Source: a virus
Reading direction: 5' to 3' (one strand)
Virus record (IMG/VR): IMGVR_UViG_3300024265_000206
Span: 1 to 23,509 of that record
Length of the DNA: 23,509 nt
Below the pieces are notes generated by a model. That model worked only from the letters and a program-made list of their open reading frames with translations, was not told where the DNA came from and searched no databases. The position numbers were made by a program, and so were the translations under genes. This document shows positions 1,729 through 6,377 of the stretch, in pieces (the first letter of the stretch is position 1; each line of letters starts with the position of its first letter).

Positions 1729-2166
1729 ATGCCATTAACAGCAAAACAAACAAGCTTTATACAATACTACGCTGATCCCACAAGCGAAACACACAACAAC
1801 GCAACGCAATCAGCAATAAAAGCCGGTTATAGCCCAAAAACAGCCAGTAATAACGCAACGCAAATAATGTCAAATCATGGAGTAAGTGAAGGAATAAGGG
1901 TTTATAAGGCAGAAATAGTGGAAAAAGCCGATGTTACACGCAGTGAAGTAATAGATAATGCCCGTTATTTGATCGATATGGGCAAAACAGCCAAGAACGG
2001 TACTGATATTGGCAAGGGCAACGAACAGCTCGCTAAGATCGCCGGTGTATTCTCTGAAAAGCGTGTTATTGAGGAGCAAACGGCCCCTGTGAGCGATGAG
2101 GAGCGTATTATCGTTGAGAAGGCGGCTCGTGAATTGAACATAAAGCTATCTAATACAGGGAGTTAG
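1729..2166 (+). CDS. terS: terminase small subunit (Terminase_2-like)
   Basis: The 145-aa product has the hallmark N-terminus of Terminase_2 family small subunits: T-x-K-Q-x-x-F-I-x-x-Y (residues 4-14), then NATQSAIKAGYSPKTA (24-39), a helix-turn-helix-like DNA-binding segment, and a second helix with NNATQIMSN (41-49). The rest is helical and acidic, including a conserved-looking ARYLIDMGK region, and probably forms the oligomer and contacts the large subunit. The protein recognises the packaging site on concatemeric phage DNA and hands it to the large terminase. AAAGGAATAGA precedes the ATG. Unusually, the large subunit is not next: eleven small genes and 2.6 kb lie between them. The family call is firm; the DNA site bound is unknown, and the heptamer cluster just downstream is a candidate. 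Confidence 0.85.
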   Translation: MPLTAKQTSFIQYYADPTSETHNNATQSAIKAGYSPKTASNNATQIMSNHGVSEGIRVYKAEIVEKADVTRSEVIDNARYLIDMGKTAKNGTDIGKGNEQLAKIAGVFSEKRVIEEQTAPVSDEERIIVEKAARELNIKLSNTGS

Positions 2167-2169
2167 GAA

Positions 2170-2571
2170 ATGGAATGTATTAATAAGTGTGGTAATGAGC
2201 TTACAGGCCGTCAAAGGGAGTTTTGTTCGGATAAGTGTAGGATGCAGCACAAGCGTAACCCGAACAGCAAACCCGAACAAACCAAACCCGAACAGCAATC
2301 TGTTCGCTTTATGACACCCGGCTTTGTTCGGGTTACAGGTGAGGTTTACAAGCGGCCTGCTGTTCGGTATGAGGGTGATAGATATGAGACCAGGCCCGAG
2401 CCACAAGACGCGCACGATCGTCCTTGTGAGAGGAACAGAGGGCGCTACTACAGACAGGACGGGACGGGCTATCAATTCGATGCTGGTGGTAGAGTGTTCG
2501 AGCTTACTAATGGCGTAGTATATGAGACCACTGAACAGGTCAGGGCTTGCTATGAGGAAATATCAGCATGA
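2170..2571 (+). CDS. zinc-finger protein with low-complexity linker, 133 aa
   Basis: An N-terminal treble-clef-like zinc site is formed by Cys3, Cys7, Cys19 and Cys23 (C-x3-C, then C-x3-C followed by basic residues), similar to short zinc fingers found on many phage and HNH-linked proteins. A low-complexity Asn/Pro/Lys/Glu/Gln linker follows (residues 30-43), then a region rich in Arg and Tyr (VRYEGDRYETRPEP) and a C-terminal beta-like part (YYRQDGTGYQFDAGGRVFEL). It starts 3 bases after the terminase small subunit stop, with GGAA before the ATG, and ends in an ATGA overlap with the next ORF. The linker coincides with the heptamer cluster at 2224-2367, so DNA constraint may shape the protein here. 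Likely nucleic-acid binding; exact role unknown. Confidence 0.7.
   Translation: MECINKCGNELTGRQREFCSDKCRMQHKRNPNSKPEQTKPEQQSVRFMTPGFVRVTGEVYKRPAVRYEGDRYETRPEPQDAHDRPCERNRGRYYRQDGTGYQFDAGGRVFELTNGVVYETTEQVRACYEEISA
2224..2367. repeat. CCGAACA/TGTTCGG heptamer cluster (iteron-like)
   Basis: Six exact heptamers occur in 144 bp: CCGAACA at 2260-2266, 2273-2279 and 2288-2294, and its complement TGTTCGG at 2224-2230, 2325-2331 and 2361-2367; TGTTCGC at 2301-2307 is one mismatch away. The longer unit AACCCGAACA occurs at 2257-2266, 2270-2279 and 2285-2294 and inverted at 2325-2334. CGAACAG (2289-2295), four bases and CTGTTCG (2300-2306) form a perfect 7-bp palindromic hairpin. The copies fall in all three reading frames of the host gene, so codon repetition alone does not explain them. 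A protein-binding array (packaging site, origin or operator) is inferred. Confidence 0.6.
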
Positions 2572-2678
2572 TTAATCCCAAACGTATATATGAAGGCGGG
2601 GGGCCCGGATTTGAAAGTGAGGGTGGCGGTAAGTACCTAGTAAACCCCGACTTTTTTCTTTTTGAAAGTGGACTATGA
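2568..2678 (+). CDS. very small glycine-rich ORF, 36 aa
   Basis: The ORF begins MINPKRIYEGGGPGFESEGG and ends ...PDFFLFESGL. Its ATG overlaps the stop of the zinc-finger gene (ATGA at 2568-2571) and its stop overlaps the start of the nuclease gene (ATGA at 2675-2678). This double overlap suggests that it is translated, at least as a coupling peptide that carries ribosomes to the nuclease start. No separate ribosome binding site is evident apart from GAGGAAA at 2554-2560. No domain or similarity is recognised. Confidence 0.5.
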   Translation: MINPKRIYEGGGPGFESEGGGKYLVNPDFFLFESGL

Positions 2679-3304
2679 TTCACGACCCAGACAATCCAGA
2701 TAGAGGTTTATGTTGTGTAGACGGTTGTTTTAATCTACAACGTAATCGTGGCCATAAGAAGTGGGGTAGATTTTGTGGAAAGCATAATAAGTCTAGTGTC
2801 TTTAGAGATGAGCGGGTCAGGTTAACAGATGAGCAAAGAGTTATTTCTAAAGCGGCTACTAAGGAAAGGCAACGGTTGTTATATGCAGAGCGAGCACGGA
2901 TTAACGAGATTAAGATGGCAAAGAAGTCGTTGCTTCCAAGGGTTTGTTCTAAGTGCGGTGAGACCTATCCTGCATCTCATTACATAGGTCGCCGTGGATT
3001 AGTTTGTGAGACATGTAAATCTTCTAGCGGTAAAGAGAAGTTTATGATAAAGAAGTATGGCATAGATTTTAAGCAATATAATTCTATGGTGGCATCTCAA
3101 TGTGGAGTATGTGCGATATGTGGAGTAGAACCTAATGGCAGACCGTTAGTTGTGGATCATTGCCATGACACGGATAAGGTCAGAGGGTTGCTTTGTGATG
3201 CGTGTAATATAGGGATAGGCTGTTTGCGGGATGATTTGGATATTTTGGCATCAGCGTCGTCGTATCTGATTAACAGTAGAACGAAAGCGGTGTATTATGG
3301 ATAA
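2675..3304 (+). CDS. endonuclease VII/HNH-like nuclease with extra zinc ribbons
   Basis: The C-terminal domain (about residues 125-205) matches the recombination endonuclease VII group of the HNH/beta-beta-alpha-metal superfamily: zinc ligands Cys146/Cys149 and Cys174/Cys177, the catalytic strand VVDHCHDT (159-166; Asp161, His162, His164), and VRGLLCDACN (169-178), followed by a short helix with DDLDILASASSYL. The N-terminal half adds Cys clusters at residues 13-18/34 and 91-94/111-114, which look like two more zinc ribbons and probably bind DNA. T4 endonuclease VII resolves branched DNA before packaging, so a nuclease of this type beside terminase genes could trim or resolve packaging substrates. 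It could instead be a free-standing homing nuclease that invaded between the terminase genes. The family is well supported; the role is inferred. Confidence 0.8.
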   Translation: MIHDPDNPDRGLCCVDGCFNLQRNRGHKKWGRFCGKHNKSSVFRDERVRLTDEQRVISKAATKERQRLLYAERARINEIKMAKKSLLPRVCSKCGETYPASHYIGRRGLVCETCKSSSGKEKFMIKKYGIDFKQYNSMVASQCGVCAICGVEPNGRPLVVDHCHDTDKVRGLLCDACNIGIGCLRDDLDILASASSYLINSRTKAVYYG

Positions 3305-4654: not shown

Positions 4655-4783
4655 ATGGATGAATTATATGGAATGTCTGGATGGGAACGAGAGCTTAGGG
4701 ATTTGTATGGCGACGATAAAGCTGATGCGATGATTGCTGTTTTTTTCAGTCGTTCCAAGGAGAGTTCTTTACCAAGTGAATAA
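4655..4783 (+). CDS. small acidic protein upstream of terL, 42 aa
   Basis: TTTTAGAAAGGAAATGAA precedes the ATG, a strong ribosome binding site. The product (MDELYGMSGWERELRDLYGD...) is a single acidic amphipathic helix, then a Ser-rich tail. It ends 16 bases before the preferred start of the large terminase. A helper or coupling role is possible; no family recognised. Confidence 0.5.
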   Translation: MDELYGMSGWERELRDLYGDDKADAMIAVFFSRSKESSLPSE

Positions 4784-4799
4784 AGAGATAGAATTAGCG

Positions 4800-6377
4800 A
4801 TGAGTGTTAATTCGATCACGTGGGCGTGTCAGAAACGTTTACAATTGCGTGACGGGATTACGTTTACCATTAAGGATATGCCTTACTTGGTTGACCTGAT
4901 CAACCCTGCTAAGAAGATAATGAACGTCAAGAAGGGTGCCCAGGTTTGTTTGACGACTACGATGTTCATTGACGATATCCATGCGTGTTATCACAAGAAG
5001 TTTCAGCAGGGTATTATGTATATGATGCCTTCGGTGAAATCTGTCGAGAAGTTGTGTAAGGTTTCTTTTGATCCGATCTTTGACCTGAATGTTTTTATAA
5101 AGAAGCGTACAACGTGTAGTAATGCGACGATAAAGACTATTAGCAGTCGTTCAATCGGTTTTGTCGGTGCCCAGCCTAAGACTGTTGGCGGTTCTTCGGT
5201 GAAGGACTCAGATAACTTAAGGTCGTTTCCCTGCGACCGTGTTGACCGTGACGAGGTTGACATAATGGATCAGGACATGGTTTATATGTCCAAACAAAGA
5301 TTGAAGCGTTCGTTGTGGAAACAGGAGCGAAACTTCGGTTCTCCTACTTATCCCGATTATGGGATCGATGCGATGTATGAGAATTCCGATCAGGGCAAAT
5401 GGCAGATAGAATGTCAGTCGTGCGGTAAGTATACTTGTTTGCCGGAGACGTTCCCACAATGTATCTTATTGGTTGGCGGGAGATGGCGCCGGTCGTGTAC
5501 GCACTGCCAGGCGGAGATATTCGTTGCCGATGGGTCGTGGGAGCATGAGTACCCCGATAGGCGTGAGGCGGGGTATTGGGTTGACGGGTTGTTAAGTTCG
5601 TATGCCAATCTTGACGATTATATGTACGATTACAACCATGCTACCGATAAACAAAGAAGCGAGTTTGTACGTTCAACATTGGGTATTGCCACTACCGAGG
5701 CCGAGAACCAATTAACCGAGCAGGACGTTTTGGACAGATGTACCAACCAGCCGATAGATATGTTTTCGTATGGCGAGACTGTTATGGGGGTCGATGTTGG
5801 CAAGACCCTTCACGTAGTGATAGGAATTAGAACTGGAAGGGACACTTACGATATTTGTAATGTTAGTCGTGTTGATTCTTTCGGGGATCTACATCTTTTG
5901 GCCCAGAAAATGAATGTCAGGTTCTGTGTGATAGACGCTATGCCGGAAGACCACAAGACCAAGGAGTTTGCCAAAGAAGAACCTTATGCGGTATACAGGG
6001 CATATTGTTCGGAGCATTACGCTGCGGGAAGACCTAATTGGGACAGCAAGCAAGGTACAGTGAAATCTAACAGGAACGAATGGATGGATAAAGTTCACGA
6101 GGTTGTGGTATCCAAAAAAATTAGAATTCCAAGAAGTTGTCCAGAGACTCAATTGTATTCTGTTTCTATGACCAAGACGGCCAAGAGTGTTATAGAACAT
6201 CCAGAAACGGGAGTAAGAAAACCGAGATGGCTAAAATTAATAGGTTCACCTGGTGATCATTACTATTTATCGACTTTATATTTCTTGTTGGCAGCGTCGA
6301 GGGTGTCACCAAGACGAAGGGATGGACAGGTAGAAAGGCATACAAAACAAAAAACAAGTTTTTCGATGGGAAGATAA
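4800..6377 (+). CDS. terL: terminase large subunit (GpA-like)
   Basis: This is the DNA-packaging motor and nuclease. With the ATG at 4800 the protein has 525 residues and begins MSVNSITWACQKRLQLRDG, as expected for this family; an in-frame GTG at 4776 is an alternative. The ATPase domain shows a Walker-A-like KKGAQVCLTT (about 44-53), where Cys replaces the usual Gly of KGAQVGLT, and an acidic Walker-B-like VDRDEVD (148-154). Cys205/Cys208 and Cys233/Cys236 form a zinc ribbon, common in GpA-type proteins. The C-terminal RNase H-fold nuclease has GVDVG (330-334), CVIDAMPEDH (about 376-385) and GDHYYLS (485-491). The 5' part uses mainly CGT for arginine and T-rich codons, the last fifth mainly AGA/AGG and A-rich codons, which hints at a recombination joint. 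Confident on function; the start is less sure. Confidence 0.88.
   Translation: MSVNSITWACQKRLQLRDGITFTIKDMPYLVDLINPAKKIMNVKKGAQVCLTTTMFIDDIHACYHKKFQQGIMYMMPSVKSVEKLCKVSFDPIFDLNVFIKKRTTCSNATIKTISSRSIGFVGAQPKTVGGSSVKDSDNLRSFPCDRVDRDEVDIMDQDMVYMSKQRLKRSLWKQERNFGSPTYPDYGIDAMYENSDQGKWQIECQSCGKYTCLPETFPQCILLVGGRWRRSCTHCQAEIFVADGSWEHEYPDRREAGYWVDGLLSSYANLDDYMYDYNHATDKQRSEFVRSTLGIATTEAENQLTEQDVLDRCTNQPIDMFSYGETVMGVDVGKTLHVVIGIRTGRDTYDICNVSRVDSFGDLHLLAQKMNVRFCVIDAMPEDHKTKEFAKEEPYAVYRAYCSEHYAAGRPNWDSKQGTVKSNRNEWMDKVHEVVVSKKIRIPRSCPETQLYSVSMTKTAKSVIEHPETGVRKPRWLKLIGSPGDHYYLSTLYFLLAASRVSPRRRDGQVERHTKQKTSFSMGR

Follow-up and report, generated by a model that had tools for sequence, protein, structure and literature searches.

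Which protein reads a compact array of a seven-base DNA motif within a small gene directly behind a terminase small-subunit gene, and for what function, is the question raised by the window considered here, namely the whole stretch of 23,509 nucleotides of the IMG/VR virus record IMGVR_UViG_3300024265_000206. In this window, the terS gene encoding a terminase small subunit of 145 aa (1729..2166, plus strand) was recognised by Pfam Terminase_2 (PF03592, E=2.4e-16) and phrog_51 (7.1e-17), and it is followed by an open reading frame of 133 aa (2170..2571, plus strand), which bears the array and whose ATG lies 3 bases past the terS stop. Further downstream are located an endonuclease VII gene (2675-3304), several small ORFs, and the terL gene of a GpA-type large terminase (4734..6377, plus strand; GpA_ATPase, 4e-12; phrog_675, 7.7e-61). 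The endonuclease VII gene sits inside the packaging operon, and fragments related to it were also found near terS in loci L009 and L006.

The initial annotation had described six exact copies of CCGAACA/TGTTCGG and one single-mismatch copy within 144 bp, in both orientations, with which a recount agrees. Four copies are extended to an exact ACC-CGA-ACA, three of them on the plus strand at 2258..2266, 2271..2279 and 2286..2294 (heptamers from 2260, 2273 and 2288) and the inverted fourth on the minus strand at 2325..2333. The three partial copies, all on the minus strand, are the exact CCGAACA at 2224..2230 and 2361..2367 and the mismatched GCGAACA at 2301..2307. The first copy, which 58 bp separate from the terS stop, coincides with the conserved zinc-finger codons F-C-S-D. 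The 10-mer AACCCGAACA occurs four times as claimed (2257, 2270 and 2285 on the plus strand, inverted at 2325), and the heptamer copies occupy three reading frames of the gene relative to its start at 2170. The perfect 7-bp palindrome noted amid the array was located at 2289-2306, where the copy from 2286 and the mismatched copy together make CGAACAG-CAAT-CTGTTCG, and the arms of a perfect inverted repeat of 12 bp, GTAACCCGAACA/TGTTCGGGTTAC, lie at 2255-2266 and 2325-2336, the latter including the inverted ACC-CGA-ACA.

Against the 6 copies observed, no 7-mer occurred more than 4 times per 150 bp when the window underwent 300 block-wise dinucleotide shuffles. The 133-aa protein was also recoded synonymously 3,000 times: with the codon usage of the genome every 7-mer likewise remained at 4 copies or fewer, and with that of the array gene itself at 5 or fewer; CCGAACA never exceeded 4. 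Since two orientations and three frames are combined with these recoding statistics, protein repetition does not account for the array, in agreement with the initial annotation, and the array is confirmed as a real feature at the DNA level. Neither is the heptamer equally dense elsewhere, with a single further exact copy, at 6006, in the 23,509 bases; as the record represents only part of a phage genome, "elsewhere" covers this half of the genome and the relatives in which it was counted.

The product of the array-bearing gene is built of an N-terminal CxxxC...FCxxxC zinc-finger-like module (with FCSDKC), a linker filled by the array, and a C-terminal part that matched no known family. The protein gave a weak treble-clef match to DUF2116 (E=0.028, under the curated cut-off) and weak matches to HNH-associated zinc-finger phrogs, and no relative was found in IMG/VR or the phage collection. 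The N-terminal matches were rejected as true relatives, being generic treble clefs beside methyltransferases, and no arrays were noticed beside them in the sequences read. AlphaFold2 of the window protein alone and a Foldseek search with the model of a relative returned nothing usable.

A comparison of the slot between terS and terL was made in twenty TerL relatives with a TerL identity of 50-61%, a repeat cluster being defined as one 8-mer occurring three times in 200 bp. Such clusters were found at 0.39/kb between terS and terL versus 0.03/kb elsewhere (7 versus 4 clusters), and their motif changes from phage to phage, with CCGAACAG in L194, GGTTCGACA in L009, GGGTTCGAC in L201 and GGTATGAC in L197. 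L194 has three CCGAACA copies in the slot but no gene recognisable as their reader, an observation that counts against a reading of the array by the product of its own gene. No array was detected in L005, L002, L006, L198 and L199, in which the same TerL and the G-rich element described below are present, implying that the array is dispensable for packaging in some relatives. No comparable bidirectional arrays were seen in 80 general TerS loci.

Several of these slots are peculiar in themselves. A single gene of L196 (2-505) harbors three successive arrays, GGTATGAC five times, GGCGTTAC three times and TCGGACA five to six times, which resembles a record of motif turnover. L193 carries three perfect DnaA boxes (191-246) where its relatives carry the array, and L002 possesses a replication-initiator-like HTH_36 gene (1640-2073; Pfam, 4.7e-9) between terS and the G-rich element, with two GGTCAATTTGAGCC repeats upstream of it. 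Two relatives, G004 (45.9 kb) and G009 (46.8 kb), are probably complete, with end repeats of 77 and 144 bp; no helicase, primase or polymerase was recognised in either, and the GC-skew minima of the complete relatives were uninformative.

The G-rich element occupies 2594..2665 (plus strand) of the window, 230 bp downstream of the array, with AAGTACCT and a block resembling CCCCGA/TCCCTGAAAT behind it. Between terS or the array and terL, this element with AAGTACCT...TCCCTGAAAT is conserved at the DNA level in 14 loci among the TerL relatives, which have different or no reading frames there; examples are L005 5316-5390, L227 1766-1842 and L228 4374-4450. It is a candidate cos or packaging cleavage region, and it resembles in reverse complement the reported 20-mer cos of PaP3 (PMC9611059).

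The array-gene proteins of L201 and L197 were then used as queries in a scan by protein similarity, which was not conditioned on TerS or terminase. It revealed 22 loci with 18 distinct genes, all 18 in a terminase operon and 17 directly 3' of terS, often with a start codon that overlaps or abuts terS; the exception, L237, lies after terL. Like all the sequences compared here, these loci come from uncultivated contigs. The upstream TerS proteins belong to Terminase_2, to GP3_package, to a type with weak TerS matches only, and to others, and the TerL proteins fall into at least three PHROG groups (phrog_675, phrog_2 and phrog_24361). The genes of this class are constructed of an N-terminal module, which is a YKDKDKQRE... 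basic region or, in L228 and L237, a zinc finger, an array-bearing linker, and often a conserved RGKDIKCF... C-terminus. For a relative and its family, AlphaFold2 predicted a helix at the N-terminus (residues 4-24), disorder in the linker at the array and a folded C-terminal piece. The class array genes matched no initiator family and nothing in NCBIfam, gave weak matches only in Pfam and PHROGs, and returned nothing better than E>=0.019 in a PDB sequence search.

The window gene resembles this class in its place directly 3' of terS (stop 2166, ATG 2170) and in a bidirectional, fixed-centre motif that is confined to the gene apart from one copy. Its N-terminal module is of the same CxxC...CxxxC type as those of L228 and L237, with the same weak phrog matches. 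Its BLASTP alignment with L237 covers only 13 aa (E=0.063), and the RGKDIKCF C-terminal domain is absent from it, as it is from L009, L246 and L247, so that members of the class can lack this domain. The window gene, having no sequence homologue, is assigned to the class by position, module type and motif form.

Two members of the class invite separate remarks. In L266, the array gene and a GpA terminase share a contig of 4 kb that was assigned to a Heimdallarchaeota MAG; it is probably a misbinned phage contig, a real link to that host being less likely. The basic region of L197 (1677-1750), NRLAAKEYRDNRRK, conforms to the basic-region pattern of eukaryotic bZIP proteins, and the array motif there has ATGAC, a bZIP half-site. 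This likeness is possibly a coincidence, and membership in the bZIP family was rejected at a Pfam bZIP_2 value under the cut-off (E=0.005), leaving a lead only.

The motifs of the class follow a simple code. Genes with a basic module carry GG(Y)-NNN-AC, in which each phage keeps to a single centre (TCG, ATG, GTT, ATT, ATC, GTG, ACT and ATA were found), as in the sites GGTATTAC of L233 (ATT) and GGCGTTAC of L238 (GTT). Genes with a zinc finger carry ACC-NNN-ACA, with the centre GTA in L237 and CGA in the window; L228 has the same ACCGTAAC core as L237, that is, ACC-GTA-ACA-type sites. Codon shuffles rendered the array significant at P<=0.001 in 15 of 19 genes, with P=0.024 in L236, and synonymous recoding did so at <=0.004 in 9 of 15 relatives and at P<1/3000 in the window. 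Beyond the array gene itself, 10 contigs hold the motif at roughly background frequency, G015 having one extra copy 66 bp before its gene.

The identity of the putative reader is suggested by what the motif centre varies with. Gene pairs with the same centre showed a similarity of 0.70 in the N-terminal module versus 0.35 for other pairs, which was reached in 0 of 10,000 permutations (P<1e-4) after removal of near-identical loci, by statistics that are not tree-aware. Basic-region codons are overlapped by the first site in three groups (GTT, GTG and TCG); with the codons or residues under sites masked, the covariation remained at P 5e-5 to 2e-4. L266, found after this test, combines the centre ATC with an ATC-type basic region and fits the pattern. 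The N-terminal module and the array are adjacent on the DNA, so co-inheritance could mimic or inflate the covariation; the C-terminus, equally near the array, does not covary with the centre (P=0.55). Neither does TerS (P=0.57, 15 class loci).

These results bear directly on the initial annotation, which had taken the array for a packaging site, possibly bound by the neighbouring TerS. Its view of a binding-site array at the packaging locus is upheld in that DNA-level arrays recur at one locus, in the terminase operon, across unrelated phages; the adjacent TerS as the binder is unsupported, because the centre tracks the N-terminal module of the array gene and not TerS. Judged from sequence, the array probably docks the product of its own gene (2170-2571). 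With about an even chance, and hence tentatively, it is read as a cluster of cis-sites for this DNA-binding product which most likely serves as an element of packaging initiation. The packaging function named earlier is still the favoured one, solely for the position of the gene directly after terS and just upstream of the conserved G-rich element and terL; what finds no support is a specificity that resides in TerS. In the proposed mechanism, the N-terminal module, zinc-finger-like in the window and a basic helix in relatives, would read the short motif, and its three central bases would act as a phage-specific address, provided that its analogues with a basic module or a zinc finger are a valid guide to the window gene. 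Sites within the linker of the reader's own gene would keep site and reader together, and the protein-array complex would most likely flag the genome to be packaged, in the manner of an initiation element of the pac/cosB kind, the sequence specificity being supplied by the accessory array-gene protein instead of TerS.

The same heptamer also forms arrays in unrelated phages. A motif-directed scan yielded 67 loci with CCGAACA arrays, 16 of them with at least 5 copies in 200 bp, versus 30 loci and 1 such locus for the reversed heptamer. These arrays are mostly away from terS and several lie by AAA_25 genes, so that the scan leaves the function of the array undecided, and the AAA_25-adjoining ones count against the favoured reading. 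At or just past the 3' ends of AAA_25 helicase/primase genes, bidirectional arrays were located in L104 (1579-1686), L108 (1115-1173), L112 (2354-2413) and L118 (9650-9793), which may possibly be replication origins. L152 contains CCGAACA 62 times in 9.8 kb, with up to 19 copies in 200 bp.

The main rival to the packaging reading is a replication origin of the lambda-O type, where a small initiator gene carries iterons in its own linker, as the origin of phage lambda (oriLambda) lies inside gene O (PMC5043065). The anatomy is alike, with a DNA-binding N-terminus, an iteron-bearing linker and a C-terminal part, and the covariation of N-terminus and iterons seen in the class follows the same logic, the window contributing the anatomy only. 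The replication-initiator-like gene and the DnaA boxes in the slots of L002 and L193 point the same way, as do the AAA_25-adjoining arrays of unrelated phages and the two probably complete relatives, in which any origin must recruit host machinery for want of recognised replication enzymes. Nevertheless, an origin is unlikely, as no AT-rich region was found near 19 arrays, whose local AT maximum within 300 bp was equalled or exceeded in a mean of 0.81 of random stretches; in the window itself the maximum is 0.70 in 60 bp, a value that 60% of random stretches equal or exceed. Moreover, the constant neighbour across unrelated terminases is terS rather than replication genes, and the array genes match no initiator family.

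A classical pac or cosB site bound by the neighbouring TerS itself would suit an array directly after terS, since pac sites have been located within or next to this gene (P22, PMC9611059), and the candidate cleavage element follows downstream. It is nonetheless improbable, because the motif does not follow TerS. The centre GTT is shared by the unrelated type-B and GP3_package-type TerS, and L239 and L244 have closely similar TerS N-termini but different centres (ATT and GTG). The closest TerS relatives of the window, L200 and L005 (35% identity), lack the array and L204 (40%) has a single copy, whereas the three copies of L194 accompany the least window-like TerS of that type (26%). Autoregulation, in which the protein would bind within its own coding region and repress or attenuate transcription of the terminase operon, is a shade less probable still. 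It would agree with an array that stands self-contained at a single locus, within the gene of its reader, and with the operon position between terS and terL, but the sites lie 50-200 bp inside the gene instead of at a promoter, no enrichment was seen upstream of the operon except for the one copy in G015, and the constant terminase association would be left unexplained. Most improbable by far is an artefact of coding sequence, through repetitive peptides (KPEQ, VR) or chance: forward copies are in frame in many relatives, encoding Gly-X-Thr, and two window copies share a frame, but the two orientations, the three frames and the recoding values speak strongly against it and, for the window, refute it statistically.

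Compared with known systems, the favoured packaging element shares with P22/SPP1-type pac a recognition site in or next to the terminase genes and a genetic linkage of site and reader. It differs in its linked reader, which seems to be a small DNA-binding protein in its own right, and in the multi-copy, bidirectional array of 8-9-mers whose centre varies independently of TerS. Lambda cosB, with its R sites for gpNu1 next to cosN, is similar in having repeats near a GpA-type terminase, here with a candidate cosN-like G-rich element, whereas the present motif does not track TerS and the array occupies a gene of its own, on the opposite flank of terS. With lambda O and its origin, the locus has in common that the array lies in the linker of a gene whose product begins with a DNA-binding module and that this N-terminus covaries with the sites, and it departs from them in lacking an AT-rich region, in belonging to a terminase and not a replication operon, and in showing no initiator homology. 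Cluster O mycobacteriophages contain a 17-bp repeat, TGTTCGG-N3-CCGAACA, as more than 30 perfect dyads dispersed genome-wide (PMC4351075); its heptamer half-site is identical to that of the window, which in contrast holds a compact half-site array at one locus.

Packaging specificity is usually credited to TerS proteins. In the class described here, motif and reader change together while TerS does not, which suggests that specificity comes from a distinct factor. Reports on several pac phages describe the in-vitro binding of TerS as weak or independent of sequence (PMC9611059). A doubtful extension is that the gene may be a portable packaging-address cassette, with a swappable DNA-binding head and an array in its own gene that bears a three-base address, whose TerS-independent specificity would fit the unrelated terminases. 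If so, phages sharing a host could discriminate their own DNA. The recognition code from the N-terminal helix to NNN is open to direct test, and even if the function were replication or regulation, these genes would still constitute an uncharacterised family of self-targeting DNA-binding genes.
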